This document shows, piece after piece, positions 1,200 through 36,574 of a stretch of 43,056 nucleotides of DNA. The first letter of the stretch is position 1. The number at the start of each line of letters is the position of its first letter. The notes under the pieces were generated by a model. The model was not told where the DNA came from. It made no database searches and was given only the letters and a program-made list of their open reading frames with translations. Position numbers and translations under genes: made by a program. Source of the stretch: a virus; the IMG/VR virus record IMGVR_UViG_3300008113_000270, positions 1-43,056 of that record; one strand, given 5' to 3'.

Positions 1200-1451
1200 C
1201 TAAGAAACTAAAAGCGCTGCTTCTTCAGCCGTCAGAGGCTCGCCTGCTACTAGCTTGGCCTTGGCAGAAGCCTTTAGGGCCTCCTTTGCAGCAGCCTCTG
1301 CCTCACGGGCAGCCTGCTCTTCTGCAGCCTGAATGGCCTGAGCCTCACGCTCTGCGATCTCCTCGTCTGTAAGAGGGATAATTTGAACCTTGTCGGGATG
1401 ACCCTCTGGTAGCGAGCAGTCAACCACGAGCTTAGTGGGTCTATCTGACAT
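1200..1451 (-). CDS. Alanine/glutamate-rich small protein of the tail-fibre cluster
   Basis: 83 aa. The N-terminal part (about 1-30) is mixed, with a PLTDEEIAEREAQ segment typical of short proteins found after phage tail-fibre genes. Residues 30-70 are a long Ala/Glu-rich helix, probably coiled coil, and the C-terminus is AEEAALLVS. SD-like GGAAAA lies upstream of the ATG at 1451. It follows the last copy of the repeated adhesin genes by 39 nt. No function can be assigned; a structural or chaperone role for fibres is possible. Confidence 0.7.
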   Translation of the reverse strand: MSDRPTKLVVDCSLPEGHPDKVQIIPLTDEEIAEREAQAIQAAEEQAAREAEAAAKEALKASAKAKLVAGEPLTAEEAALLVS

Positions 1452-1490: not shown

Positions 1491-2033
1491 CTAGCTGACT
1501 GTGACGCCGCCGGAAGATCCTTTTGTTATGCCGTATAAAGTTGCGGAACTGTATTGAACAAGGGGATTTTGTGCGTCACCAGAGTTCCATGCAGCCAATG
1601 TAACTGATGTAATTGCTGAATTATTATTCCAAAACCCAGAAACAATATTTAGGAAATTAGTCGTGGTGCTGTTGTTATCTGCCGTGCCTTCAATAGAAAA
1701 ACTTTTGGGGCTTGTTGTTGAGGCATAATTTGGAATATAAATTCCCACATTAGAAAAACTATTAGCGGAAAATCCATTATTTATTGAAGCTAAATTGCTT
1801 CCTACATAAGTATCGCTTCTAGCGAATGTACCAACGCTAGTCCCTCCGCCATTAAGGACTTTCGTGGTCCTACCTGAAGCGCTTCCGTTAAATCTGAGCG
1901 CTAAAAATGGTGTTTCTTCTCTACCTGTAAATTGAATAAATAAATCAGTATAGGTATTCGGGATGCTGGAAAATTCAATTACAGAACTAACACTACCAAC
2001 TTCAGCATGTGCAATAACTGTCCAAGCACTCAT
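1491..2033 (-). CDS. Putative receptor-binding/fibre protein, cassette 2 gene C
   Basis: 180 aa, rich in Ser, Thr, Asn and Gly, predicted all-beta. It starts MSAWTVIAHAEVGS, has the SSIPNTYTDL motif near residue 25, and ends YSSATLYGITKGSSGGVTVS; that 20-residue end is identical to the paralogue at 3142-3681. The pattern of short beta strands, RFNG-type loops and a final LYGI strand is common in uncharacterised phage surface proteins of aquatic viromes. Host adhesion is an inference from its place among fibre genes. It begins 2 nt after the upstream gene's stop. Confidence 0.8.
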   Translation of the reverse strand: MSAWTVIAHAEVGSVSSVIEFSSIPNTYTDLFIQFTGREETPFLALRFNGSASGRTTKVLNGGGTSVGTFARSDTYVGSNLASINNGFSANSFSNVGIYIPNYASTTSPKSFSIEGTADNNSTTTNFLNIVSGFWNNNSAITSVTLAAWNSGDAQNPLVQYSSATLYGITKGSSGGVTVS

Positions 2034-2035
2034 AT

Positions 2036-2524
2036 CTAGCTCACTATTCCGTAAAGGGCGAAGGTTGAACCGATCTCAAAACTACCAGTTGAGGGGTAAA
2101 TAGTTATTGAGGTAATTGGATTTGTGCTTGCCCATCTACCACCAGTCATGTCAACGCCAAAAGTAGAGTTAGTTCTCGATATAACAATTTTTTGCTTATC
2201 CGTAACGGCATAATCAAAAATTTCAATTATTGCATTGTGTGAAAAGTCGGTTGCTAAATCACCATTTCCGTTCAATCTCATAAAGGCAGCATTTGTTGAA
2301 GAATTATAGGAAACTACAGAACCAGTTGCTTGCGCAGTTACTCGGTTGTAATTATTGCCCGTATCGCCATTGAATCGAATATAATAGTCTGCTTGAGCCG
2401 TATTATCAGTATTTGTAATGACAACTAAATGTCGATATGTATTTGGGATTGAATTAAAAATAATAGATGAATCAGTTCCAGTTAGCGTTAGATTAGCTAA
2501 GGCGATATATGTAGCGGTAGGCAT
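2036..2524 (-). CDS. Putative receptor-binding/fibre protein, cassette 2 gene B
   Basis: 162 aa, beta-rich. The first 14 residues (MPTATYIALANLTL) and the last 11 (GSTFALYGIVS) match the paralogue at 3684-4154 exactly, while the centre has diverged strongly. It has SIPNTYRHL at about residue 25 and a RFNGDTGNNY loop. The start codon overlaps the upstream stop (TAATG), indicating translational coupling. It is the same fold family as its neighbours; an exposed adhesin role is inferred. Confidence 0.8.
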   Translation of the reverse strand: MPTATYIALANLTLTGTDSSIIFNSIPNTYRHLVVITNTDNTAQADYYIRFNGDTGNNYNRVTAQATGSVVSYNSSTNAAFMRLNGNGDLATDFSHNAIIEIFDYAVTDKQKIVISRTNSTFGVDMTGGRWASTNPITSITIYPSTGSFEIGSTFALYGIVS

Positions 2525-3135
2525 TAGCTAGACCTCATTCCATACAGGCTAAAAGTTGAATATTGAACAAAATCAGTAGCGCCGCTGGTCAGAGTAAGAG
2601 TTGTTAGCGCACCGGTATTTCTCCATTGACCGCTAAATAACCAAATTGTATTATCAGTTCCATCATTTGCTGTAGTCAAAGATCTGATTGATTTATTTGT
2701 AGTTGTTTCAAAAGGATTAAGAATATTTACCACCGAAGCACCAAAAATACCTGCCCCACTTGTGCTTCCCGTCAATCTTCCGACGATCATATTTGTTTGA
2801 TTTATGCTGCCGCCGGCTGAGGTAGCTGTTCCTGTACTGTATAAGTAATGGTAATCATAGCCAGTTGTGCTTGAATTTAATTGTAAGTAGACATTGTCAC
2901 TTCTGGTCCCGCCGCTAGCTCTATGAGTCATGCGAAGTTGCAAGTGCTGATAAGTACTTCCATAGGATGTATTTAAATTGGAAAAGGTAACAGAAACTTG
3001 ACCGCTTGAGCTTACTGAAACCGTGTCCAAAAGTTCATAAGCGCCAATGATCCGATACGCCTCATTACCAACCAGCATGCTCTGATACCACCTGTTATCT
3101 AACAGGCTACTTTTCTTTAGAGACCTAACTGCCAT
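2524..3135 (-). CDS. Putative receptor-binding/fibre protein, cassette 2 gene A
   Basis: 203 aa. The N-terminal about 45 residues (MAVRSLKKSSLL, then a YQSMLVGNEAY stretch) are shared with the paralogue at 4154-4762 and may be an attachment segment. The rest is beta-rich with TFSNLNTSYGSTYQHLQLR at about residues 50-70 and the C-terminal end FSLYGMRSS. It begins cassette 2, 6 nt after the last gene of cassette 1. Confidence 0.8.
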   Translation of the reverse strand: MAVRSLKKSSLLDNRWYQSMLVGNEAYRIIGAYELLDTVSVSSSGQVSVTFSNLNTSYGSTYQHLQLRMTHRASGGTRSDNVYLQLNSSTTGYDYHYLYSTGTATSAGGSINQTNMIVGRLTGSTSGAGIFGASVVNILNPFETTTNKSIRSLTTANDGTDNTIWLFSGQWRNTGALTTLTLTSGATDFVQYSTFSLYGMRSS

Positions 3136-3141
3136 GATGTC

Positions 3142-3681
3142 CTAGCTTACCGTAACTCCACCGCTTGAACCCTTGGTAATGCCGTAGAGGGTTGCGGAGC
3201 TGTATTGCTGCCAAGTTCCACCAGCAGACGAATCTAAGGTCACAGTTGTAATTGCTGCAGTATTTGACCATAAGGCAGCACCAATAAGAGCATAAGCTTC
3301 TGTTGCGTTGTTTTCGCTAACGCTATCTATGGTAACCAATTTATTGGCAGAACCTGAATAATTTGGAATGTAAATCAAAACATTAGCAAAAGTGTTTGCT
3401 GTTGAGGTGTTGCCATTGATCAAACCATTCTCTATGTATGAGGAAACGCCTTGAGTATTAGCCGAAACTGCACTTCCGGTTCCATACAGTCTTCTGCTTG
3501 AATAATTAGCAGCGTTCCCGTTAAATGCAATAGTAAGCCAATCCCAAATATTGGCTTGATTGCCTCGAACAGAAAGCAATATTGCCAAGTCTGTAAAGCT
3601 ACCGCTTATTGAGCCAAATTGAATGTTTGTAGCCCCACCCGAACCAACCTCGGTATGTGCAATAACTGTCCAAGCACTCAT
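3142..3681 (-). CDS. Putative receptor-binding/fibre protein, cassette 1 gene C
   Basis: 179 aa, paralogue of the product of 1491-2033. It shares the N-terminus MSAWTVIAH and the 20-residue C-terminus. The centre contains motifs seen in many aquatic phage surface proteins: IQFGSISGSFTDL, IAFNGNAANYSSR, NVLIYIPNYSGS and LWSNTAAITTVTL. No catalytic residues are evident. A trimeric beta-structured tip or decoration protein is the most natural reading, by inference. Confidence 0.8.
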   Translation of the reverse strand: MSAWTVIAHTEVGSGGATNIQFGSISGSFTDLAILLSVRGNQANIWDWLTIAFNGNAANYSSRRLYGTGSAVSANTQGVSSYIENGLINGNTSTANTFANVLIYIPNYSGSANKLVTIDSVSENNATEAYALIGAALWSNTAAITTVTLDSSAGGTWQQYSSATLYGITKGSSGGVTVS

Positions 3682-3683
3682 GT

Positions 3684-4154
3684 CTAGCTCACTATTCCGT
3701 AAAGGGCAAAGGTTGAACCGCTAAGAAATTGGTCTGATGCATCATCTGGGCCAATAAATGCAACAGAAGTAATGGCACTTGTTGTTGCTACACGACCAGC
3801 GATAGCCCAAACAGAAGAAGCAGCAGTGCTAGCTCTAGTAAGAACAGTTTTGTGTTTATCGGTTGCTGAATAATCCATAATGTTTACAGTAAACACAGCG
3901 TGATTATTTGAAAACGGCACAACTAAATCTGTAGTGCTAGAGGTTGGGCCACCGCTATCCATAAAAACTGAACTTCCATTAGAGCCATTGAGTGTCATGT
4001 AACCACCCCTTGCGGTAGGGCTACCAGTTAGACCAACTATATTTATGACGGCAACTAAATCTCGATATGTATTTGGGATGTTTGAGAATGTGACTGTTCC
4101 TGCGTTTGCAGATAATGTCAAATTAGCCAAAGCAATATAAGTAGCAGTAGGCAT
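3684..4154 (-). CDS. Putative receptor-binding/fibre protein, cassette 1 gene B
   Basis: 156 aa, shortest of the six. It has the N-terminus MPTATYIALANLTL, SNIPNTYRDL near residue 25, the NIMDYSATDKHKTVLTR segment aligning with IFDYAVTDKQKIVISR of its paralogue, and GSTFALYGIVS at the end. It is translationally coupled to the upstream gene by a TAATG overlap and is followed after 2 nt by gene C. Confidence 0.8.
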   Translation of the reverse strand: MPTATYIALANLTLSANAGTVTFSNIPNTYRDLVAVINIVGLTGSPTARGGYMTLNGSNGSSVFMDSGGPTSSTTDLVVPFSNNHAVFTVNIMDYSATDKHKTVLTRASTAASSVWAIAGRVATTSAITSVAFIGPDDASDQFLSGSTFALYGIVS

Positions 4155-4762
4155 TAGCTAGACCTCATTCCATATAGGGAGAAGCGAGAGCCAATAACGA
4201 AGTCACCAATGACATCAAGCTTAAGTGAAGTCAAGGCTGCTGTATTTCTCCATAATCCGCTTTCAAGAGCAACCTGTCTATCGCTCTCACCCTGACCTAA
4301 GAACATTCTCGTAGTGGTGAATTTTGTTGTCTCGAAGGGGTCGAGTATGTCCATAATAAAGGCTGTGAATTTGTTTGCAGTTGCATTATTAGCAGCGTAA
4401 TAACTGATATAAGGAACAGCATCGTAGAAGCTACTAACGACCGAGCCGCTACCCGCTAAACCATGGCTGTTGTAATTACCGCCAGCAAGTGTCTCATCGC
4501 CATTGAAGAAAAATGTTCCCAAGTCTGCTACCTGACCAGACCTGTTTGTTCTTGCAACAACCCTCAGCTGTAAATGCTGATAGGTGCTTCCATAAGATGA
4601 ATTCAGGTTAGAAAAAGTAATAGTTGCTTGATTGCCAGTTAGAAGAACTGTCTCTAAATGCTCATAAGTACCTGGGGGCACATACGCAGCATTGCCCGCC
4701 AGCATAGACGAGTATTTGTCGTAAGTAACTAGACCAGAGCGAGCAAGGCTTTTGACCGCCAT
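4154..4762 (-). CDS. Putative receptor-binding/fibre protein, cassette 1 gene A
   Basis: 202 aa. The N-terminal segment MAVKSLARSGLVTYDKYSSM resembles an anchoring region. The remainder is beta-rich with TFSNLNSSYGSTYQHLQLR near residues 50-70, a MDILDPFETTKFT segment that is also in its paralogue (NILNPFETTTNKS), and an FSLYGMRSS end. SD AAGGAG lies 5 nt before the ATG at 4762. First gene of the duplicated cassette. Confidence 0.8.
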   Translation of the reverse strand: MAVKSLARSGLVTYDKYSSMLAGNAAYVPPGTYEHLETVLLTGNQATITFSNLNSSYGSTYQHLQLRVVARTNRSGQVADLGTFFFNGDETLAGGNYNSHGLAGSGSVVSSFYDAVPYISYYAANNATANKFTAFIMDILDPFETTKFTTTRMFLGQGESDRQVALESGLWRNTAALTSLKLDVIGDFVIGSRFSLYGMRSS

Positions 4763-4771
4763 TATCGCTCC

Positions 4772-5101
4772 TTAGGCTATTTCAGAACCGAATACGTTGA
4801 AGCTTAGATTTGCAGTGGATGCGTATACGGTCACTACGTCTGCAGCATCGATTGTGATGCCTAGTGTAATTGTAGTAGAGTCCGATGCACCAACGGTTAC
4901 ATCGTAAGCAATGTAGTGCTGGTTAGCCAAGCTTGCACCATTTGGTCTGATCGCAATGCGGTAGGTGGCAGCACTGGCAGCACGGTTAGCAACTACGATC
5001 GTGGAGACAACTGCCTGAGTTGCACTAGGCACAGTGTAAATGTCAGTAGCAGTAGTTGCGCTTGGCGCACTCTGTGCTAGAACCTTGTAAGTAGTTGCCA
5101 A
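4772..5101 (-). CDS. Small beta-rich fibre-associated structural protein
   Basis: 109 aa with alternating Thr/Ala/Val beta strands (TATDIYTVPSATQAVVSTIVVANRAA, then TYRIAIRPNGASL, here given in parts). Proteins of this size and pattern are frequent next to phage tail-fibre genes and are usually called head or tail decoration proteins; the exact role is unknown. It follows a gene with Mtd-like N-termini by 1 nt and precedes the repeated adhesin cassette by 9 nt, so it is probably part of the same host-recognition assembly. Confidence 0.75.
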   Translation of the reverse strand: MATTYKVLAQSAPSATTATDIYTVPSATQAVVSTIVVANRAASAATYRIAIRPNGASLANQHYIAYDVTVGASDSTTITLGITIDAADVVTVYASTANLSFNVFGSEIA

Positions 5102-5102
5102 T

Positions 5103-5483
5103 TTAAGCTCCCATCAAAAGAAATACGCTTGGCGTTGGATCTGTAGTAATTGTAGCCCATGAAGCGGTAGTTCCGTTAGTAGTTAGGTACTTTCCGTCAT
5201 TTCCCGTTTGGCTTGGTAGGGCATCGAGGGTTGCGTTTACCCAAGCGGTTCCGTTCCATTGTAGAACCTGCCCGCTTGCGGCATCTGTGATCGTGACATC
5301 GCCGATAGCATCTAGCGTAGTAACAACGCCAAAGTAGGCCAGCGAGTTCCAAGCGGTTGAACCGTTACCGATCTTAGCCTTAAGGGTATCGGTTTCTATA
5401 CCAACTTCACCCTGTGCCAGAACGGTGTTAGCGCTGGTCCAGTTAGCTGCGGTATCCCGCCTAAGCTGAATCTGTGATGCCAT
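5103..5483 (-). CDS. Fibre protein with Mtd-like N-terminal domain (copy 2)
   Basis: 126 aa. Residues about 3-52 (QIQLRRDTAANWTSANTVL, then GEVGIETDT, KIGNGSTAWNSLAYFG) match the major-tropism-determinant N-terminal type of domain, which attaches fibres or tips to the virion as trimers. Downstream is a DVTITDAASGQVLQWNGTAW segment, a repeat type common in phage fibres. It is a paralogue of the upstream product of 5483-5881, and its start is coupled to that gene's stop. No receptor-binding C-terminal lectin domain is present. Confidence 0.83.
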   Translation of the reverse strand: MASQIQLRRDTAANWTSANTVLAQGEVGIETDTLKAKIGNGSTAWNSLAYFGVVTTLDAIGDVTITDAASGQVLQWNGTAWVNATLDALPSQTGNDGKYLTTNGTTASWATITTDPTPSVFLLMGA

Positions 5484-5881
5484 TAAAAGCTCCCTGCATT
5501 TCCGCCATTTATATTAGCATAGGCAGCATAGACGGTATTCGCTGCCCCGCCATCAATGTAGATTGTGGGGTCCACGTAATCTGTGATATCTGCCAAAAGA
5601 TGCGTGTGAGCAAAGTCTGTGATATCCGTCTTGACGTGAGTGTGTGCTGAAGGCGGGAATGTAGTCGGTTTGTTTAGAACCGAAGTCCATTCAACTGTAC
5701 CTATACCAGAGGAGTCTCCAACGGTATAGCCCAAGGCAGACCAAGTGCTAGTGCCGTCACCAATTTTCGATCTGCGGGTATCGGTCTCTATGCCCATCTC
5801 ACCCGAGGCGAGAACTGGATTTGCTGAGGCCCACTGCGCTGCAGTGCCCCTACGGAGACGAATAACGGTTTGAGCTGGCAT
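5483..5881 (-). CDS. Fibre protein with Mtd-like N-terminal domain (copy 1)
   Basis: 132 aa. The N-terminal 50 residues (VIRLRRGTAAQWASANPVL, GEMGIETDT, KIGDGTSTWSALGY) are the Mtd-N type of domain. The second half has two HTH-x-(K/L)xDITD units (AHTHVKTDITDFAHTHLLAD), a metal-binding-looking histidine repeat often seen in trimeric fibre shafts. It ends in GGNAGSF. Adjacent to, and partly duplicated in, the product of 5103-5483. Confidence 0.83.
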   Translation of the reverse strand: MPAQTVIRLRRGTAAQWASANPVLASGEMGIETDTRRSKIGDGTSTWSALGYTVGDSSGIGTVEWTSVLNKPTTFPPSAHTHVKTDITDFAHTHLLADITDYVDPTIYIDGGAANTVYAAYANINGGNAGSF

Positions 5882-5900: not shown

Positions 5901-6494
5901 CTACTCGGAAATCTGGTATGTACCGCCAATATGAAAATTGTCTGCGGTACTAAGGGTGACAGGCACGTTGTGCTCAAAGAAAACTTGCCGGCCATTCGAT
6001 GCCGTGGAAAGAAGCGTCATTCTATTTGATCCAGCCAGAATGTGCCCCAAAATGGCGTATTCATCTCCAGTGGATATGTCATGCAGGCAGCCGTCTGAAA
6101 AAAGGTAGTTCCTCTTGGATGTGAATGGTAAATCCATGTAGTACTGGCCAGTGCCAAAGTTGGTGATATTGTCAAACTCTACGTCGATCGCAAAATTGAC
6201 CAGGCTGCCGATCTTTGTATAGGTGCCAGAAAACATTGGTGGCCCGCTAAATGTGGGCTGAGTGCCGCCTAGAGTACCGCCACCGGGGATAAAATCAACC
6301 TGAACGGTTTCAAGGTCAGTAGATACTAACTTCCTAGAGGTTCTACCGTCGTGGATGTGGTCGCCAGGTGAGGCTTGGTTGGGCAGGATTCCTAGCGTGT
6401 GGTGCTGAGCCCTTGGGGACTCATCGATATCAGAGTTATTGTGTAGCCTTTTTACTTCATCGTAAGAGGTCTGTTCTACCGGTCTGATTTTCAT
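5901..6494 (-). CDS. Tail-fibre/receptor-binding protein, first gene of the minus-strand fibre operon
   Basis: 197 aa. Residues about 30-50 (QHHTLGILPNQASPGDHIHD) are the phage structural motif in which histidines and a PGDHxHD loop sit before a fibre domain. The C-terminal 130 residues are beta-rich (FSGTYTKIGSLVNFAIDVEF onward) like appendage C-domains with a jelly-roll-type fold. There is no SD before the ATG at 6494. A TAGAAT hexamer sits 6 nt upstream of the ATG, so this mRNA may be leaderless. It is divergent from the structural operon. Confidence 0.8.
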   Translation of the reverse strand: MKIRPVEQTSYDEVKRLHNNSDIDESPRAQHHTLGILPNQASPGDHIHDGRTSRKLVSTDLETVQVDFIPGGGTLGGTQPTFSGPPMFSGTYTKIGSLVNFAIDVEFDNITNFGTGQYYMDLPFTSKRNYLFSDGCLHDISTGDEYAILGHILAGSNRMTLLSTASNGRQVFFEHNVPVTLSTADNFHIGGTYQISE

Positions 6495-18820: not shown

Positions 18821-21800
18821 ATGGCCCTAGACCCAAGAGTAATTGCAGCACTTTCAGCTGGCGCAAAGACATCTGCCACTTATCAACCCCGTGAATATGA
18901 AGCAGATGGTGCTGGCGGCGCTTGGAACCTTGGCCAGAGCATTATCGACGTCCTTTCAACTGGTGGTTATGCAACTGCTGGTTTAACTAACAAGATCGGT
19001 CAAAACTTCGCAGCTATTGGCCGTGGTGAAATTGGTGCCGCTGCTGATTTGGTCAACCCACTTAGTGGCGTCGATGCAATGGTTCGTGGCGTTTCAGATC
19101 GGCGCACCTATTCGCAGAACTTACAAGAACTTGGCGTCGATCGCAATACTTCTGTTTGGCTAGGTCTTGCGCTTGATATCGGCCTTGATCCTACGACTTA
19201 CATTACTGGTGGTACTCTCGCTGGCGTAAAAGGCGCTGCACAAGGTGCAAAGCTTGCAGCTGCAGCCTCTAAAGGCGGATCTACCATTGTTAAGTCCGGT
19301 GAAGTCGCTGGGACCGTAGACAAGACAAATAAGGCTCTTCTTGGTTTGGGCAATAGCCTAGAGGCTAGCGTTCCGCTAGGTCGCCCGCTTACCGAAAGCG
19401 AAAAGCTGGGCAATCTTCTCACGGGCATTAGTCGTGGATACCAAACTGGAAAGAACCAGTACAAGCTGAGCATTAAGGGCAACAAGCTTCAGAAGATTCG
19501 TGCAAAGCAGGCTAAAAAGGCAGATGAGGTTCGTGGTGTAGTCGAAGTAGGCTCCACATTTTCCAAGCTTCCTACTGGATCAGACACTCTTTCAACCGTT
19601 CAAAAGGTTAGCGCCAAAGAAAAGAAGGCTGCTGAAAAATACGCAAAAGCGAAAGCAAAAGTTGACGCTAGCGCTCTCCCCGGTGTAACTGCTGGTCTTA
19701 GCAAGGCCACTGCTGCAAAGATTGCGTCTGATGCTGCTCGAGTTATTTCGACCGTCGAAAAACTCGACAATGGCCTATTTGGTATCGTTGTTCGCTCCCC
19801 TGAGGGTCAGGTGTTGGAGCACAGGTTTGCAAAGAAGGCTTACAAGAGCGAAGCCAGTGCTAAGAAGTCTGCGGATATTGCAGCCCGTGAAGTTGAAGAA
19901 AAGCTTCGTGGTCAAGCTAGCTTAGACACTCAAGTCGGCCCAGCTTCAGCTGAGGCCGCTGATGAAACAACTCGCACCGCTCTTCGCCCAGCCGAAGGCA
20001 ACGCTAGGGATGCTCGCATTCGGGCCGAGTTTGCTGAGGGCAGCAAGCAGCGTCGTGATCTGAACATCTTGGTTAAGAGTCTTGCTCGCCCAGGTGTATT
20101 CCGCCAGACTAGAGAGCTTGACGAGACTGACTCAGCAAAGCTAGAGGCAATCAAGGAAGCATTCCTAGACAGGATCGACGACTTTAGGCAGGCTGAGCAG
20201 ACTGCAATCAAGGTAACTCCAAATCAAATTGGAAAAGCAACCGTTGATGAGCTGATCAAGTACACAACTACTCCAGTGTCGAAGGCAGTTCCCAATGAGC
20301 TATTCGATCGCATACTAGATGCTGTTGCCGTTGTGCCAGAGGACTTCACCGCATTGCAGCGAGCGCTTGCAAGCGAGCGTGTGGCACCAGGCGAAGCTAC
20401 GATCTATGACCTAATCAACATTGCAGTTGATACCGAAAACACACCTGCAGCTATTCAGCAAGCTCGAGAAGCATTTGTTCTAAGCAGATTAGGCATGGAG
20501 GAGTCTGCTGCTGTAGCAAGCACAACTCTCAAGCCGTGGATCGATGGCATCGTAACCCCAATGGATGCCGAAGATGCCGTCAGGGCTATGGTTGATCTAA
20601 TTTATGCCGATCTCAAAAAGAGTTCTCGTGCATACAAAGTAATTGTCAAGGCTCTTACCGATGCCCTGGAGGGCAAGCTAAAGGCAGTTGCTGGCGGTGC
20701 AGAAAAGCCACTTACAGCCGATGAAGTAGAAGATGTCTTTAACGCTTTTATTAGCGGCAACGACATCTCTAGGGCTATTGAAAAACTTGGTCGCATCGAT
20801 CTTGAAAAGATGAGCGATGAGACATACAACACAATCGATGAGCTCGCTGCAGATTTGCAAGACAACAAGATCAAGCTGTCAGAAACATTTAAGCGTGATC
20901 TGTCTTTTGTACTGGGCGTACCTACCAACATTGTCCAGGCCTCATTTGTTAAGGTCTTTGGAAATGTCGACGGTCTGGGTCGAGTGCTCACAGATGACGC
21001 CCTCACTTTAGGTAAGGGCATAATCACTTCTACGGATGCAGCAACTGCAACAGGCAACACTGCAGGCCAGGCTGCGGCTGCAGCGGCCGATGCGACCCTC
21101 GACGCTTCCAGGGTTGAAGACATTGCGCAGCAAGCAGCAGACATCGCAGCACCGATGCCAGCTACAAATGTTTCAGCAGAAGCTACCGCTGAGCTTGTAT
21201 CGATGCGAGAGGTTTTTGCAACAGAGGCTCAGCAAGCACTGAATGACCTAGCCACAAAAGCTGGTTTTACAGACAGACAAGTTCGCAGCAGGATCACAGG
21301 CATTGTTCGTGACAACATGCTCCCAAGTATTAGAGATCAGATTAAGAGTCTTGCTAAAAAGCGTGGGCTCACACTTGAGCAAGCTTTGGACGAGGTTCTT
21401 GCTGGAGACCTTAGGGTCATTACCGAAGATCCCGCATCGTTTACAGTTGGCGGAGCTTTAAAGCTAGACGAGCTTGGATCTCATGGTCGAATTGACATGT
21501 TTAATCGAATTATTTATGCAAGCAAGGGCAGCGTATACAAGGGAACAAATGCCAACGCTTTGGCAAACAGAGAGGCGCTGAACTTCTACGCAATAGAAAC
21601 AGCGCTACGCTCACTGGGTATTCCGGTTCGCTCTACAGAGTCAGCAGCTGCCGCTCTTCGCAGAGAAGGTGTAAAGGCTGGCACAAAGAAGGCTAAGTCA
21701 GTTAAGCCACAGTACTCAAGCGTTACCTGGGCTGACATTCTGCGTCAGATGATTGACAAGAACCAGCAAGGCTTGGCTTTCGAGCTTAGAAGAATTAGGG

Positions 21801-24757
21801 GAGAAGCCAACAAGGGTTACTCTTACGGAAACTTCCTGCCAACCTCTATCGAAGCTGCATGGCTGACCGTCAAGCGCTACAAGGAAGCTGGTGTTGATTT
21901 TGAAAAGGGCAGCGAAAACTACGAAGAGATTCTTTTTGCCCTGAACAACAAAGAGGTTCGTGGCGGTAAGTTTGATCTAGCGCCTCACGCTGAATACGCA
22001 AAGCAAACTCCTGCTGCAGCTGGGCAAATAGAAAAAATCTCTGACGATCTGATTAAGTTCCTGTCTGATAATTACGATGCTCTAAAAGAGATCGATTCAT
22101 TCCGGGAGGGCTTGATCATTGGCGCAAATGCGCAGGCTGTTTACTCGCAATCTGTTGAAGTATTTGCTGGCATGATCCGCTTCTCTGGTGAGTTCACTCA
22201 GCTAAAAGAGTCATTCAAGGCTGGGGACTTGGCTGATGCTCAGCTAACCGAAAGCCTCGGGCAACTACTTGGCCGTTACAACAACTTGTTTGAAAGACTA
22301 AGCACTGGATCATTTAGCGATCGCAAGCTAGCTGAGAACATGGCTGGCATGTACAAGAGCATGATCATTAATGCTGACATTCCAGGTGCAAGCAAGGTAA
22401 AGCCTTTCGTGCAGGAAATGACGAACATTATCGCAACTGTCCGTGCGACCGACAAGGCCTATGCAGCTGCTAAGGCCGCTGGTAAGTCCGAGAAGGCAGC
22501 TGAGACAGCTGGTAAGTCTGCTCGTACAACTCAAAAGCGAAACAACCTTGAGCAAGACGTGCAGATTACGGCTGAGCAGCTTGCTAGATCAAGTGCTGCA
22601 GATGTTCCAACCCCTGCTGCTTCTGAAGCTGCAGAGACTGCTGTGCAGGAAACTGTCTCGCTTAACAATGCTTTTGCAAAGATCCAGACTCGTTGGACCA
22701 GGGCCGGGAAGGCTATGTCTGGCAACTACGGAATGGGTGCGTCATTTAAGACGATTCTTTCCAGTTCCGAGCAATCCGCAATCAGCTACTCACACTGGTT
22801 CTCTTTGGGAATCAGAGCAATCAAGAGTGCAACTCGTGGTCGTGAGGCTGATGTCCAGGTAGCGTTTAAGGCTCTTCAGGATTACAAAAAAGAACTTGCC
22901 GCAGCCGATGAGCTAGGCGAGGCTATCTCCCTTGATGACTTTTTGGCAAGTTATGGCCAAGTTGATCGTGAGATCTTTGACTCACTAAGCGAGTCATTCG
23001 ACATTCTCCTTGGCGCTGACAACGTATTCGGTGCAGCTAAATCTCTTAGCATCATGAAGAGCGAACTAAACCAGGCTCTAAGACAGTTCGGACTTTCGAG
23101 CATCCAGGTTGGAGACGCAAAGACCTTCGATGACTTCTGGCTTGAATACTCACCAGAGCTGTTTCCGGATCGAAGCCCACTCGAGTTCATTAATCTCCTA
23201 AACCTTGCCGTTCACAGAGCTGCTGCTCGAGTTGAGATCGCAAGCCAGTTTGATCAGTTCGTTGGCAAGACAGCTAAGGAAATTGCAGACCTTGGTGAAA
23301 ACATTAATGACTACGTCAAGATCGACACCGACACTAGCATTGGCCAGCTGCTTGGTGACACAAACAAGTTTGTTCACCGTGATGATGCAGAGCGTCTCAA
23401 GTATGTTCAGCGCTATCTTGACTACGACCAGACATTTAGCGAGGGTGCATTAAGTCGTGTTGTCGAAGTCGCAGATAGAGTGACTTACGTTCTGAAGTCG
23501 ACTAACACACTTCTACGCCCAGGGCACCACGTAACCTCAATTGTTGGTGAAGCGGCCATGAACGCCCTTGCAGGCGTTCGCTTGTCTTCGTACAACAACA
23601 CAGCACGTATCCTCAACAGGTTCCGCCCAGGCCAGTACGAAAACGCAGGCGAGCCATTCAAGGCTTACGCTGAGCTGATTGCCACAAAGGGCAAGCGTAT
23701 AAAGGCAGATGAGTTTGACAACATCTACTGGATTAACCCACAGGGCAAGCGTGAAATCCTTCCGGATGAAATCGTTTACCAGCTCGCTGAGCGCTGGGGT
23801 GTTCTAGTCCACCCAGGTGGCTCTCTTGAAGACTTCATGGTTTCAAGTGACTCAGTTCTAAAGGGCGCTTATGCTAAGTTCCACCAGGGCATGAATGGCA
23901 TCTCGGTCCTTGCCAGCCACCGTGACAACTTCTTCCGTTTGACTCACTTTATCGATGAGTTGCAAAAGACAACTGGCGCAAAGAGCGTAGAAGAGGCAGC
24001 GCTTGCCGCTGCTACTGCAATTCGTGAATGGCACCCAACAGCTGGTAGCTTGTCTGCTTTTGAAAAGAAGTATGCTCGCCGCTTTGTTTACTTCTACACC
24101 TGGCAGCGTGTAGCTCTTACAAAGGTTGTTGCAACCATGCTTGAGCGACCTGGCATTGTAACCATCCCAAGCAAGATCCAGTATGCATTTGCAGATGCTA
24201 ATGGCTTCAACCCAGAGTCATTTGGAGACCCATGGGATCCGGATGGAATATATGCAAGCTGGCACACAGGCCAGATGTGGGGCCCTCAGTTCCAAGGACC
24301 AGCAGGCGAAGGTGATGCTTGGGGTCTACAGCCAGCAATTCAGCCAGTCGATGTTCTGGGACAAATTTTCAAGCCATTTACGCTCCAGCCTGGGGCAAAC
24401 CCAATCGACTCAATGGCACAGGGTGCTAACGATCTGTTTGCTGCAAACATGAACCCAGTTCTAAAGACATTGATTGAGTCCTCGACTCAGAACAAGCTGG
24501 GGACTGGCGAAGCGCTGCCTGGCCCCGCTGAGTATCTTCTGGGCCAGATTGGTGTTATTAGCACTTTGTCCAAGGTAACTGGTATTGGACAAGATCCAAA
24601 TCCTTACCAAACTGACGAAGAAAGAGCAGAAAATAACGCTAGGCTTATCACTAACCTGTTGTTAGGTCAAAGGTTGACCGACTACAGCACACCAGCTACA
24701 CAATACAAGTGGACGCTGGATCAACAAGACATAATGAGACGAATGGCAGGACAATGA
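18821..24757 (+). CDS. Giant internal virion (ejection) protein, 1978 aa
   Basis: Largest gene (5.9 kb, about 14% of the genome). N-terminus has GGAWNLGQSIIDVLSTGGYA and DIGLDPTTYITGG (about 100-125), seen in large podoviral internal proteins. Residues 230-1300 are Ala/Lys/Glu-rich helices; the last about 500 residues look more globular (TWQRVALTKVVATMLERPG, WHTGQMWGPQFQGP). No transglycosylase or protease motif was recognised, unlike T7 gp16. A DNA-ejection conduit or motor role is inferred from size and place. Confidence 0.8.
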   Translation: MALDPRVIAALSAGAKTSATYQPREYEADGAGGAWNLGQSIIDVLSTGGYATAGLTNKIGQNFAAIGRGEIGAAADLVNPLSGVDAMVRGVSDRRTYSQNLQELGVDRNTSVWLGLALDIGLDPTTYITGGTLAGVKGAAQGAKLAAAASKGGSTIVKSGEVAGTVDKTNKALLGLGNSLEASVPLGRPLTESEKLGNLLTGISRGYQTGKNQYKLSIKGNKLQKIRAKQAKKADEVRGVVEVGSTFSKLPTGSDTLSTVQKVSAKEKKAAEKYAKAKAKVDASALPGVTAGLSKATAAKIASDAARVISTVEKLDNGLFGIVVRSPEGQVLEHRFAKKAYKSEASAKKSADIAAREVEEKLRGQASLDTQVGPASAEAADETTRTALRPAEGNARDARIRAEFAEGSKQRRDLNILVKSLARPGVFRQTRELDETDSAKLEAIKEAFLDRIDDFRQAEQTAIKVTPNQIGKATVDELIKYTTTPVSKAVPNELFDRILDAVAVVPEDFTALQRALASERVAPGEATIYDLINIAVDTENTPAAIQQAREAFVLSRLGMEESAAVASTTLKPWIDGIVTPMDAEDAVRAMVDLIYADLKKSSRAYKVIVKALTDALEGKLKAVAGGAEKPLTADEVEDVFNAFISGNDISRAIEKLGRIDLEKMSDETYNTIDELAADLQDNKIKLSETFKRDLSFVLGVPTNIVQASFVKVFGNVDGLGRVLTDDALTLGKGIITSTDAATATGNTAGQAAAAAADATLDASRVEDIAQQAADIAAPMPATNVSAEATAELVSMREVFATEAQQALNDLATKAGFTDRQVRSRITGIVRDNMLPSIRDQIKSLAKKRGLTLEQALDEVLAGDLRVITEDPASFTVGGALKLDELGSHGRIDMFNRIIYASKGSVYKGTNANALANREALNFYAIETALRSLGIPVRSTESAAAALRREGVKAGTKKAKSVKPQYSSVTWADILRQMIDKNQQGLAFELRRIRGEANKGYSYGNFLPTSIEAAWLTVKRYKEAGVDFEKGSENYEEILFALNNKEVRGGKFDLAPHAEYAKQTPAAAGQIEKISDDLIKFLSDNYDALKEIDSFREGLIIGANAQAVYSQSVEVFAGMIRFSGEFTQLKESFKAGDLADAQLTESLGQLLGRYNNLFERLSTGSFSDRKLAENMAGMYKSMIINADIPGASKVKPFVQEMTNIIATVRATDKAYAAAKAAGKSEKAAETAGKSARTTQKRNNLEQDVQITAEQLARSSAADVPTPAASEAAETAVQETVSLNNAFAKIQTRWTRAGKAMSGNYGMGASFKTILSSSEQSAISYSHWFSLGIRAIKSATRGREADVQVAFKALQDYKKELAAADELGEAISLDDFLASYGQVDREIFDSLSESFDILLGADNVFGAAKSLSIMKSELNQALRQFGLSSIQVGDAKTFDDFWLEYSPELFPDRSPLEFINLLNLAVHRAAARVEIASQFDQFVGKTAKEIADLGENINDYVKIDTDTSIGQLLGDTNKFVHRDDAERLKYVQRYLDYDQTFSEGALSRVVEVADRVTYVLKSTNTLLRPGHHVTSIVGEAAMNALAGVRLSSYNNTARILNRFRPGQYENAGEPFKAYAELIATKGKRIKADEFDNIYWINPQGKREILPDEIVYQLAERWGVLVHPGGSLEDFMVSSDSVLKGAYAKFHQGMNGISVLASHRDNFFRLTHFIDELQKTTGAKSVEEAALAAATAIREWHPTAGSLSAFEKKYARRFVYFYTWQRVALTKVVATMLERPGIVTIPSKIQYAFADANGFNPESFGDPWDPDGIYASWHTGQMWGPQFQGPAGEGDAWGLQPAIQPVDVLGQIFKPFTLQPGANPIDSMAQGANDLFAANMNPVLKTLIESSTQNKLGTGEALPGPAEYLLGQIGVISTLSKVTGIGQDPNPYQTDEERAENNARLITNLLLGQRLTDYSTPATQYKWTLDQQDIMRRMAGQ

Positions 24758-26779: not shown

Positions 26780-27031
26780 TTAGCCTCTAATTACGGAAAA
26801 GATCGATGTCAGCAGCCCAACGATGCCAGCAGTGAGCGCTGCCAACACAACCTTCGGGACCCAAGCTGCTTCTGCCTGAGTCTTCTCCACTTGTCGAAGC
26901 CGATCCGGAACATCTGCAAGACCATCCAATCTCTCCAGTGTTCTCACTAGCAACTTCTCGTTGTCCAGTTGTTTGTCGTAGATTGTCTGCAGCGTCACCT
27001 TCACGTGAGGCTGTGTTGCTTCCTCTGCCAT
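26780..27031 (-). CDS. Coiled-coil/transmembrane protein, possible second holin or spanin-like
   Basis: 83 aa. Helical coiled-coil N-terminus (about 8-55, IYDKQLDNEKLLVRTLERLD) and one C-terminal hydrophobic segment (about 59-80, VVLAALTAGIVGLLTSIFSV). This tail-anchored layout occurs beside actinophage endolysins and is often called a holin-like protein. One nt between its stop and the endolysin start; its ATG overlaps the fibre gene stop. Confidence 0.75.
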   Translation of the reverse strand: MAEEATQPHVKVTLQTIYDKQLDNEKLLVRTLERLDGLADVPDRLRQVEKTQAEAAWVPKVVLAALTAGIVGLLTSIFSVIRG

Positions 27032-27768
27032 TATGGGGTTCCACCATCGATCGCTGTCTCCAATGCCGTTAGGCGATTATTTTGGGTAGTGTTTACGCCT
27101 TCAACAGATGTGAGGCGGGTGTTGAGGTTCTGTCCCTCAAGAGTAGTAATACGAGAGTTAAGATTCTGGCCCTCAAGGGTGTCAAGTCTGCCATCAAGTG
27201 AAACATCAGCGCTTTCAAGGTTAGTAAGCCTTGTGTTCTGAGTTGTGTTTAGCGTCTCAATGTTGGTCAATCTTGTGTTCTGAGTTGTGTTCAGGGATTC
27301 GATCGAATCCAGTCGACCGTTCTGAGTGGTGTTTACAGTCTCAACGCCGGTCAAGCGAGTTGAGATGTTTAGCGCCTCAAGGGTGTCTAAGCGACCATCA
27401 AGAACAATGTCATAAGCCTCAAGCGAGTCAAGGCGAGTGTCGTAATTGTTGTCAGTTGTTTCAAGCGCAGTAAGTCTGTTGTTTTGAGTTGTGTTCAGCG
27501 ACTCGATCGAATCAAGTCTGCCGTTCTGAGTTGTGTTAACGCTCTCAACGCCGGTGAGGCGAGTTGAGATGTTCAAAGCTTCGAGGGTGTCTAAGCGACC
27601 ATCAAGAACAATGTCGTATGCCTCAAGCGAGTCGAGGCGAGTATCAACTGCAACTGCCTCAGCATCGATCTTGTCCATGTTGGAGTTGAAGTCAGACGCT
27701 CTAAATGGTTCTGAGGATCCTGGTACTGGCTTAAACAGAGCCAGTCTGGTTGTCGAGGTAGATGCCAC
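27031..27768 (-). CDS. Trimeric coiled-coil fibre protein with internal repeats
   Basis: 245 aa. N-terminal about 35 residues (LALFKPVPGSSEPFRASDFN) are a tail-fibre N-terminal type seen in many actinophages. The rest is an unbroken series of about 14-residue units of the form NTTQNxRLxxxExL / LDGRLDTLEAL, giving a long coiled coil. A 68-residue block is nearly repeated. No receptor-binding tip follows, so another protein may supply it. It is encoded in the lysis operon, far from the other fibre genes. Confidence 0.85.
   Translation of the reverse strand: MASTSTTRLALFKPVPGSSEPFRASDFNSNMDKIDAEAVAVDTRLDSLEAYDIVLDGRLDTLEALNISTRLTGVESVNTTQNGRLDSIESLNTTQNNRLTALETTDNNYDTRLDSLEAYDIVLDGRLDTLEALNISTRLTGVETVNTTQNGRLDSIESLNTTQNTRLTNIETLNTTQNTRLTNLESADVSLDGRLDTLEGQNLNSRITTLEGQNLNTRLTSVEGVNTTQNNRLTALETAIDGGTP
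27289..27642 (-). repeat. Long direct repeat inside the coiled-coil fibre gene
   Basis: About 150 bp at 27289-27438 recurs at 27493-27642 (offset 204 bp = 68 codons) with scattered, mostly silent changes. This is a recent in-frame duplication that would lengthen the fibre shaft. Confidence 0.85.
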
Positions 27769-27770
27769 GG

Positions 27771-28508
27771 CTATCCTTCTTTAGGAGTAATTTCGATGAC
27801 CGTCTCAGCCTCCATAATATCACTATTTGGCTCTTTGACAGCAGTAAGGGGAGAATGTCCCTGCGCCAGTGCAATCAGTTCCCTAGCGATGTTTCGCTTT
27901 GCAATCGGATCTCGAACGTTCCTTAGCACGATGTCCTGTATCTGCATCATTAGCGCCGGGACATCCAGACTTTGTCTGGCGTTAGGGTCAAACCTGCCAG
28001 TCAGCTGGTTAATGAAAGTAATGGCCTTCATATCGCCCTGCTGGACTAGCTGGCCTAGCGCCTGGTCAGCAATCGGGATGTACTTCTTTAGGTTTTCTTC
28101 GCTTTTCTCGCTCATGGCAGCTGCGAAATGTTTTTCACGCATCCAGCCATCTAGCTCGGTTAGCGAGATCTTAAGCTGCTTAGCAACGATCTGCGGGGGC
28201 TTTAGGTTAAGCGGGTTTAGATAGGCCTGCAGGAATGTCTCTTGTCGCAGCGTCAGGTTTGGATTGCGGGTAGTTTTGATACCACGGTCATCTAGCGACT
28301 TTTGGAACTTTGTAGAGCCCCAGACCAAATCAACTTGTTCCCGTTCCAGCGTCTCATCCTGGTCCAGTACGGTCTGAGGCTCCACAAAGAACCCTCTTCG
28401 ATCTGCTGCGACAGCAGCAGCCAAAACTTTCTCAAAGAGCTCTTGCTCCTTGGTTGCCCGGCTAGAGGCAAGCCTTGATTCGAACTTCTCTAAGTCTAGC
28501 TCACTCAT
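27771..28508 (-). CDS. terS: Probable terminase small subunit
   Basis: 245 aa. The centre holds NLTLRQETFLQAYLNPLNLK and then PPQIVAKQLKISLTELDGWM, an HTH like that of phBC6A51-type small terminases, followed by QALGQLVQQGDMKAITFINQ, an oligomerisation-type helix pair. This supports recognition of packaging DNA and handing to the large subunit. It is about 19 kb from, and opposite in strand to, the large subunit. Start overlaps the ImmA-like gene's stop by 4 nt. Confidence 0.72.
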   Translation of the reverse strand: MSELDLEKFESRLASSRATKEQELFEKVLAAAVAADRRGFFVEPQTVLDQDETLEREQVDLVWGSTKFQKSLDDRGIKTTRNPNLTLRQETFLQAYLNPLNLKPPQIVAKQLKISLTELDGWMREKHFAAAMSEKSEENLKKYIPIADQALGQLVQQGDMKAITFINQLTGRFDPNARQSLDVPALMMQIQDIVLRNVRDPIAKRNIARELIALAQGHSPLTAVKEPNSDIMEAETVIEITPKEG

Positions 28509-28843
28509 TTTCCACCTAGCAAAAACTTAGTAAGCTCTGGGTTTTCTTGCAGCACGGTTACAAGTGGCTCTTCCCATAGTGCAATGAAATGGTGCTCCCA
28601 GTCTGCATAGCTAGTTCCCTTGCTGGGCGTAGTAGCCCCGCCGTAGGTAAACCTGATCGCATGCAGGATCTCGTGCAGCAGCGTAGTGCGCTTTCTGCTG
28701 ATCGGGATATCTACGTCAATAATGATCTGGTTGAACTTATCCAAGGTGTAGCCGAAAGTACCCTCGTTAAGCTCAGAGTCCTTCTTGCTAGATCGCTCAA
28801 CGATCTCCCAGATCTGTGTACCAATCTTGACTGTCTTGATCAT
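28505..28843 (-). CDS. ImmA/IrrE-type zinc metallopeptidase-like protein
   Basis: 112 aa, shorter than typical. HEILH at 57-61 (HExxH zinc site) within LLHEILHAIRFTYG; a downstream Glu such as E83 (WEHHFIALWEE) could complete the site. In ImmA/IrrE systems the protease cleaves a partner XRE repressor. The gene is directly after the XRE gene (4-nt overlap), the usual pair order. No integrase is present, so the pair may regulate something other than lysogeny. Confidence 0.82.
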   Translation of the reverse strand: MIKTVKIGTQIWEIVERSSKKDSELNEGTFGYTLDKFNQIIIDVDIPISRKRTTLLHEILHAIRFTYGGATTPSKGTSYADWEHHFIALWEEPLVTVLQENPELTKFLLGGK

Positions 28844-29349
28844 GCTGCAGGCAACTTCTCTAGTTCAACTATGTAATCAGCGCTCATGCCGTATGGCTTG
28901 AATGCCTCAAGTAGCCTACGTGATAGCAGCTCAGGAAAGGCCTTCATCTCGCCGGATTCGTACCGTGAGACCACAGCCGGGTTTACCCGCAGCATACTGG
29001 CGAGCGCCGTAGGCGTCTTTGCGATCTCGCTTCTCCACTGCTTGAAGGATTTGTAATACTGGCTGAGTGTGTAGGGCGGGATGATCATCAGGTTCTGCAC
29101 TGCAGGCGGTGCATCGATTGCGATCGGTGCAGTTGCAAATTCCCTGCACTGAGCTTTGAGTTCATCGACAGCAATGCCAAGACCGCTGGCCAGTGGTGCC
29201 AAGATGGTATCACTTGGTACTTTCGTGCGGCCATCCTCGATAGCTGTCACGGCTGCACGGTTAACGCCTGCTTTGTTGGCAAGCTCAACCTGGCTCAGTC
29301 CAAGCTGCAATCTGGCTAGGCGAACAGGGTGGTTATTTATTCTCGCCAC
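28840..29349 (-). CDS. XRE-family regulator with two HTH domains
   Basis: 169 aa from the GTG at 29349. First HTH about residues 8-62 (RLARLQLGLSQVELANKAGV); linker; second HTH-like domain about 105-160 (TPTALASMLRVNPAVVSRYE). An ATG at 29415 in frame would add 22 residues but has no SD and would overlap the zinc gene by 83 nt; the GTG has a weak GAGAG. A likely DNA-binding repressor or activator, possibly the target of the ImmA-like protease. The divergent region upstream of this operon carries a phased GCTAGC array. Confidence 0.85.
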   Translation of the reverse strand: MARINNHPVRLARLQLGLSQVELANKAGVNRAAVTAIEDGRTKVPSDTILAPLASGLGIAVDELKAQCREFATAPIAIDAPPAVQNLMIIPPYTLSQYYKSFKQWRSEIAKTPTALASMLRVNPAVVSRYESGEMKAFPELLSRRLLEAFKPYGMSADYIVELEKLPAA

Positions 29350-29464
29350 AGTCACTCTCTCTGCAAACGCTGATTCTCTTGCCACATTTATTGCAAGGTG
29401 GGATCTGCTGGTCATCTATAAAAATTGCTCTGCCTGGTGAGGGGTGTATCCATACATGTGTCAT
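29333..29464 (-). CDS. Zinc-knuckle microprotein, probable leaderless gene
   Basis: 43 aa: MTHVWIHPSPGRAIFIDDQQ, then IPPCNKCGKRISVCRESDCG. Four cysteines (24, 27, 34, 39) in CxxC-x6-C-x4-C spacing suggest one zinc site. No SD; a TATAAT hexamer ends 7 nt before the ATG at 29464, so transcription would start on the A of the ATG. Its stop lies just inside the following XRE gene. Function unknown. Confidence 0.6.
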   Translation of the reverse strand: MTHVWIHPSPGRAIFIDDQQIPPCNKCGKRISVCRESDCGENK

Positions 29465-34996: not shown

Positions 34997-35371
34997 ATGA
35001 GTAACGCAACTGACCGCCAGCTACTTGATGAGGCCAAGGCCAAGCTAGTAACTAAGGCAAAAGAAACCAAAGAGACATCCAAGTCGGTCGAGGCTATCGA
35101 TCCGGCGCTCGCTAACGAGCTATTGGCAAAACGTAGCGCAGTCTATGATGCCAAGAAGAAACTCGAGGCAGAGTTAGCTGAGATCGATGCCATTGTCAAG
35201 GACATGATCGGCAACGCTGACCAGCTAACGATTCATGGTGCCAAGGTGGCATCCATCGCTAGGTGGCGTGAGACCGCATTGATCACCGATGCAGTCAAAG
35301 ACACCTTCCCTGTAGCTGAGTACCCCGAGCTATACAAGCGCACCAACAAGAGCAGGCTGACGATCCACTAA
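34997..35371 (+). CDS. Phage recombination/replication-associated helical protein
   Basis: 124 aa. Coiled-coil N-terminal part (about 5-80: LAKRSAVYDAKKKLEAELAE), then a short domain GNADQLTIHGAKVASIARWR with PELYKRTNKSRLTIH, a pattern common in proteins near phage nucleases (hGxxVA...Pelyxxyxxxsxsr). SD AAAGGAG. The position ahead of nuclease and helicase genes agrees. Biochemical role unknown. Confidence 0.68.
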   Translation: MSNATDRQLLDEAKAKLVTKAKETKETSKSVEAIDPALANELLAKRSAVYDAKKKLEAELAEIDAIVKDMIGNADQLTIHGAKVASIARWRETALITDAVKDTFPVAEYPELYKRTNKSRLTIH

Positions 35372-36137: not shown

Positions 36138-36264
36138 GTATTTCATCTGTTCTAACTGTGATCATATGTTCGATGACAGCGAGCGTGACCACGATATCCA
36201 GCAACCTATGTGCAGGACTTGCGCAGATACTGACCCTGAGTTCTACTCAAGTTACGGGAGATAA
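36130..36264 (+). CDS. Zinc-ribbon microprotein, 44 aa
   Basis: MTEYFICSNCDHMFDDSERD then HDIQQPMCRTCADTDPEFYS. CxxC-x17-CxxC ribbon. Start at ATG 36130 overlaps the upstream stop. One of three consecutive small cysteine proteins directly before WhiB. Confidence 0.6.
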   Translation: MTEYFICSNCDHMFDDSERDHDIQQPMCRTCADTDPEFYSSYGR

Positions 36265-36265
36265 C

Positions 36266-36574
36266 ATGACCGGCCCATTACTTTTCAACTCAACAGCGAA
36301 ACGCCACGCATGGCTGAAGCTAGCCAACATGGTGGATGAGGTCGGCCCAGATCATATCCCCTGCACCCAAGCACCAGATCTTTACTTCCCTGAAGGGGAC
36401 GAGATCGGTGGCGCTCACTATGTTCGATTAGCAAAGAACGCCTGCAAAAAGTGCCCACTGGTACTACCTTGCGCTGAGTACGCAATCAAGTACAGAGAAG
36501 AGTACGGAGTATGGGGAGGACTTAGCCCCACCGATCGTAAAAACATTAGAAGAAAGCGAGCTGAGAATGCCTAA
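36266..36574 (+). CDS. whiB: WhiB-family transcriptional regulator
   Basis: 102 aa from ATG 36266 (SD GGGAG). C33, then C60-x2-C63-x5-C69 bind an iron-sulphur cluster, and GVWGG at 81-85 with the basic RKNIRRKR tail is the WhiB DNA-binding turn. WhiB proteins bind sigma factor region 4 and are found only in Actinobacteria and their phages, so this fixes the host phylum. Phage WhiB proteins can redirect host transcription. Confidence 0.93.
   Translation: MTGPLLFNSTAKRHAWLKLANMVDEVGPDHIPCTQAPDLYFPEGDEIGGAHYVRLAKNACKKCPLVLPCAEYAIKYREEYGVWGGLSPTDRKNIRRKRAENA

Follow-up and report, generated by a model that had tools for sequence, protein, structure and literature searches.

The tail-tip gene cassettes studied here are built from three old paralogue lineages, A, B and C, whose order A-B-C is kept in about 300 other phage cassettes. 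The three are distinct positions and are not interchangeable, a distinction that the sequence-only reading of this DNA had not drawn. Nor did that reading note that, of the three, A alone bears a docking peptide, or that nearly all relatives have a small gene behind the last C. It is well supported that the cassette varies because phages exchange the core of one gene at a time with one another at conserved joints. We consider it probable that these paralogues serve as subunits of a single host-recognition tip, likeliest a 1:1:1 heterotrimer docked through A, whose genes are exchanged singly.

Two A-B-C sets at the end of a tail-fibre operon

The window, that is, the whole stretch of DNA analysed, is a virus contig of 43,056 bases; it has a near-copy in which both sets are also present (L001/L435). 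Its fibre genes run leftward, and its terminase, portal and major head genes run rightward. The nearest relatives of the terminase belong to Arthrobacter, Cellulosimicrobium and Microbacterium phages. A gene for a WhiB-like regulator, a marker of actinobacterial phages, lies at 36158-36574 (+) and points to an actinobacterial host, and we take the source to be a freshwater, actinobacterial phage. Elsewhere in the window are a single very large open reading frame (ORF) of 1978 aa at 18821-24757 (+) and two back-to-back ORFs of equal length (245 aa) at 27031-28508 (-), with a repressor-like HTH gene nearby (28840-29415).

The sequence-only reading had described two A-B-C sets at 1491-4762, and its coordinates and gene lengths proved correct, with all six genes on the minus strand (Table 1). 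As it also held, the two sets share their junctions: in both, the overlap of A with B is 1 nt (TAATG) and a gap of 2 nt separates B from C. The near-identical gene ends are equally real, as the first 14 residues of B1 and B2 and the last 21 of C1 and C2 are identical and both A1 and A2 end in SLYGMRSS; between these ends, the cores of same-letter genes are strongly diverged when the cassettes are aligned. Measured against shuffled sequences, z is 20-24 for pairs of the same letter and 4-10 for pairs of different letters. The proposal that all six proteins form one beta-rich family is borne out by profile-profile comparisons, in which all three pairings of A, B and C reached a probability of 99.9%, and AlphaFold2 models of single chains are all-beta (pLDDT 86 for A1 and 87 for C1). 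A sequence search of the PDB returned no noteworthy match, and Foldseek against the PDB found no solved structure at E<0.001. Structural matches were limited to viral predicted structures, and the fold has relatives among viral proteins whose annotation mentions collagen or side-tail-fibre repeats.

The cassettes sit at the end of the tail-fibre operon, which places them among tail-fibre/receptor-binding tip modules in the broad sense. The neighbouring genes E1 and E2 (5103-5881, -) are short and adjacent, have Mtd_N at both starts and resemble a duplicated pair. Downstream, a relative of the small gene G lies no more than 1.2 kb from the last C in 297 of the 302 blocks having enough downstream sequence, and its product may be an assembly chaperone.

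Table 1. Features of the cassette region, in window coordinates
Feature	Position	Strand	Basis or remark
G, small downstream gene, 83 aa, Ala-rich, likely helical	1200..1451	-	relative behind last C
C2, 180 aa, cassette 2	1491..2033	-	
B2/C2 joint (B2|C2)	2007..2056	-	codon identity in clade
B2, 162 aa, cassette 2	2036..2524	-	
A2/B2 joint (A2|B2)	2497..2544	-	codon identity in clade
A2, 203 aa, docking peptide and A domain, cassette 2	2524..3135	-	
Docking peptide of A2 (MAVRSLKKSSLLDNRWYQSMLVGNEAYRI)	3049..3135	-	motif count
C1, 179 aa, C domain, cassette 1	3142..3681	-	
B1/C1 joint (B1|C1)	3655..3704	-	near-identical DNA across clade
B1, 156 aa, B domain, cassette 1	3684..4154	-	
A1/B1 joint (A1|B1)	4127..4174	-	near-identical DNA across clade
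A1, 202 aa, docking peptide and beta-rich A domain, cassette 1	4154..4762	-	
Docking peptide of A1 (MAVKSLARSGLVTYDKYSSMLAGNAAYVP)	4676..4762	-	motif count
D, 109 aa, tail-fibre-type protein	4772..5101	-	directly before first docking-peptide protein
E1, Mtd_N tail-fibre protein	5103..5483	-	Mtd_N domain
E2, Mtd_N tail-fibre protein	5483..5881	-	Mtd_N domain
F, opens leftward fibre operon	5901..6494	-	kept in backbone relatives

Three conserved positions in many phages

Single-protein and profile scans of viral contigs yielded more than 400 loci; A served as query in one scan alone, of the single-protein type, and the contigs are metagenomic and were retrieved by similarity. The 435 loci include 302 non-redundant blocks with a single A-B-C, of which 42 lie at contig edges, seven entries with two sets (two being the window copies) and one with three, and domain totals come to 438 for A, 453 for B and 461 for C. 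Profile HMMs for A, B and C put every domain in one class, with a lowest margin of 3.7 bits and a median of 86. In a tree of these sequences, A, B and C cluster by position rather than by phage. Single fibres consisting of A only or C only are almost absent. The cassette is present in hundreds of uncultured aquatic phages. Exceptions to the order are rare (AACBAC in L046, A-C-C in L417 and ABCC in L039). Relatives of C also occur in L207 and L208, contigs that were binned with an uncultured actinobacterium and a MAG of a pond bacterium.

Exchange of single cores at conserved joints

We compared cores among 307 distinct triplets, counting a core as shared at 80% identity or more. Of 43 core-sharing pairs, 39 share exactly one core, three share two and one shares all three. 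Retrieval by similarity could favour pairs sharing one gene, yet pairs sharing the A core are the commonest kind although A was queried in one scan. Of 23 mosaic pairs, nearly all have their breakpoints within the gene ends; in one such comparison (L138 with L145), the two loci align on both flanks, in A and in C, and do not align in mid-B.

Within the window's clade, codon identity at the joint ends is 0.63-0.97, compared with about 0.2-0.6 in the cores. This codon conservation is local to the clade, and a conserved DNA joint was not found across the family as a whole, so recombination, and not a DNA signal common to all members, seems to have homogenized the joints. At least 17 loci carry an ORF that interrupts A/B or B/C exactly at the joint, and all nine of those tested encode an HNH_3 endonuclease, which suggests that these enzymes may take part in the exchange. 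HNH-type loci of this kind are seen at A|B in L028, L161, L166, L213, L215, L135, L377, L053, L024, L059 and L292, and at B|C in L094, L090, L274, L158, L395 and L390; the window itself has no HNH_3 match. A weak match to a RecE-like recombination exonuclease (E 2e-6; 34997-35371, +) is also present in the window and is relevant to recombination at the joints. The set is the same in the cultured phages E7 and F5 (~97% DNA identity), and no exchange is seen between these isolates.

Docking peptide, added domains and a likely role in host recognition

The docking-peptide motif occurs in 25 of 353 A proteins and in none of 365 B or 371 C proteins; many other A proteins begin with a different short peptide of the PLGVLA type. 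Outside A, the motif is confined to 15 Gly-rich proteins, which stand directly behind D in the backbone relatives examined. In six of these relatives (L442, L454, L455, L464, L486 and L499), a Gly-rich protein directly after D bears the docking peptide as a fusion, and we regard this fusion as an alternative tip module. Added sequence has a clear polarity. N-terminal extensions are found on 18 of 343 A proteins and 0 of 366 C proteins, and on B there are three short cases (81-99 residues, measured from the preceding stop codon). C-terminal extra domains are found on 13 of 361 B proteins, 27 of 358 C proteins and a single A protein (1/349, 63 aa). Among the large additions, six of eight fused proteins tested scored above threshold for Gly_rich_2, and B and C sometimes both bear a C-terminal Gly-rich domain within one cassette. 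Neither B nor C has its own stem or docking sequence.

The proposal that the cassettes form an adhesin, or tail-tip, module agrees with their place beside the Mtd_N tail-fibre genes and with the presence of the trio in the island region of the cultured 'Ca. Planktophila' phage E7. There, A-B-C lies at the position of a published island that is reported as under-recruiting and presumed to act in host recognition, and whose genes are labelled DUF2541 in the metaviromic-island literature (PMC3909814, PMC7468147, PMC10202952); Pfam did not reproduce that label for the E7 island genes. Position, neighbours and variability together suggest a role for A, B and C in host recognition, and variability and position suggest that the tip itself binds the receptor. 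A diversity-generating retroelement was considered as a source of the variation and rejected: the record, which may be incomplete, has no RVT_1 match, and Mtd_N is absent from the variable genes A, B and C, being confined to the neighbours E1 and E2.

A probable three-chain tip

In the model we favour, A alone would bear the N-terminal docking peptide and would mount the tip beside D and the Mtd_N fibre proteins, and B and C would complete the head. Within each chain, the N- and C-terminal strands would pair to form a conserved mounting side, leaving the chain middles as a variable, receptor-facing side. During mixed infections, homologous recombination between the short conserved joints, sometimes beside HNH endonuclease genes, would swap the core of one subunit gene per event, and this replacement of one core at a time would yield new A x B x C combinations. 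Because the window phage has two complete sets on the same type of docking peptide, it probably displays two alternative tips, and both sets may well be used in virions.

That the three chains would assemble as a heterotrimer is suggested by the logic of the genes and by analogy. Free exchange of single subunits weighs against it, as this requires interfaces that tolerate many partners. Co-variation, when tested for a cyclic A-B-C order, gave a negative result. Strong couplings join the ends of B and C (B8-C170, z ~19-20 versus a shuffled maximum of ~7), and couplings with A are weaker; these inter-chain couplings fall within the conserved ends, where shared ancestry could also account for them. 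With the order negative and the end-end couplings ambiguous, we set co-variation aside as proof of a cyclic heterotrimer. A broader statement is plausible but one we hold only tentatively, with somewhat less than even confidence: that an obligate A-B-C heterotrimer tip in widespread aquatic phages undergoes independent reassortment at near-fixed DNA joints, some of them HNH-marked, with combinatorial host-recognition diversity drawn from three allele pools.

Alternative explanations

A different architecture, in which each of A, B and C builds its own homotrimer and the three are stacked along the fibre with A proximal and C distal, each exchanged alone, seems unlikely to us, although several observations favour it. 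Single-gene exchange would be easy if the chains share no interfaces, gains at the N-terminus of A and the C-terminus of C resemble a linear stack, and the domain fold also occurs in other viruses within single-gene proteins that have collagen-like repeats. Such a stack fits poorly with the C-terminal Gly-rich domain that B also takes, at times together with C, which is odd for a middle segment, and with the lack of stem or docking sequences on B and C and the near absence of A-only or C-only fibres. The mosaics themselves could in principle be assembly chimeras, short identical joints having led assemblers to link genes of different phages from one sample; the contigs are metagenomic, and joints of about 50 identical bases fall exactly on the breakpoints. 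We judge this very improbable. Usual read lengths exceed the length of a joint, the mosaic pairs are drawn from many samples and the HNH genes found at these joints are a sign that genuine genetic events take place there. Moreover, the flanks of L138 and L145 also differ by ~10-20%, and a double mis-join around B would be needed to produce this pair.

The origin of the second set is a separate matter. The sequence-only reading saw a tandem duplication followed by divergence, a design that duplicates the cassette, keeps the mounting ends and varies the cores. Ends are indeed kept and cores varied, but duplication is not supported as the source of the variants: in none of the multi-cassette genomes compared is the closest relative of a set the copy in its own genome. 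Each set-2 gene is closer to alleles of other phages than to its set-1 counterpart, and another phage, L002, has an A and a C that are ~95% and ~92% identical to A1 and C1, together with a different B. Set 2 is not a recent copy of set 1, and the two sets are not sisters. The tandem arrangement, the identical junction layout and the very similar ends are what a duplication would leave, but the ends are common to the whole clade and their similarity is therefore not a mark of it. A recent tandem duplication of the three-gene cassette in the window phage, followed by rapid divergence of the cores, is thus scarcely credible. Most phages with a cassette carry a single set. Among phages that share the window's terminase and have 6 kb or more of sequence on the fibre side, five have one set and most have none, and the window and its near-copy have two, so that zero, one or two sets occupy the same spot on this backbone. 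Given this variable number and the closer alleles of other phages, a set is best read as an optional tip module from a shared pool.

Significance and relation to known systems

Tailed phages are usually described as having a homotrimeric receptor-binding tip, the product of one gene. If the three-chain tip is correct, three paralogous chains exchanged singly would multiply the specificities of a phage population from few alleles, and would explain, by a concrete mechanism, why the host-recognition islands of abundant freshwater phages are hypervariable. The cultured phage E7 makes the three-chain tip testable.

In the C1q globular head of vertebrate complement, paralogous chains A, B and C form one recognition head. 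The likeness to the phage cassette is a works-like analogy; no sequence or structure match to A-B-C was found. Closer to phage biology, T-even phages swap the receptor specificity of the distal tail fibre by recombination between conserved motifs (Tetart et al. 1998, cited in PMC7468147). That system swaps one adhesin locus, whereas in the A-B-C cassettes each of the three paralogous subunit genes is swapped on its own, at the joints between genes. Metaviromic islands of marine and freshwater phages are regions where genes for host recognition differ between near-identical phages and where variants of a module are shuffled (PMC3909814, PMC7468147, PMC10202952). The likeness to these lies in position, the E7 island matching the A-B-C region; the portions of those accounts on which we draw do not describe a three-position family, its joints or reassortment at the level of subunits.

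The nearest parallel is Dishui Lake Virophage 2, in which three consecutive paralogous tail-fibre-like genes, when co-expressed, give a co-purifying heterotrimer that binds cells, and in which the tail proteins group by position and not by virus (PMC12724248). A-B-C shares with that system both the three consecutive paralogous genes in fixed order and the position-wise clustering across viruses. The two differ in family, that of the virophage being the phage tail collar PF07484, T4 gp37-like, for which none of the six window proteins gave a match, and in the virus, a virophage rather than a tailed phage. They also differ in how they vary: the virophage tail phylogeny is reported to run parallel to that of the capsid (PMC12724248), whereas the cores of A, B and C reassort gene by gene.
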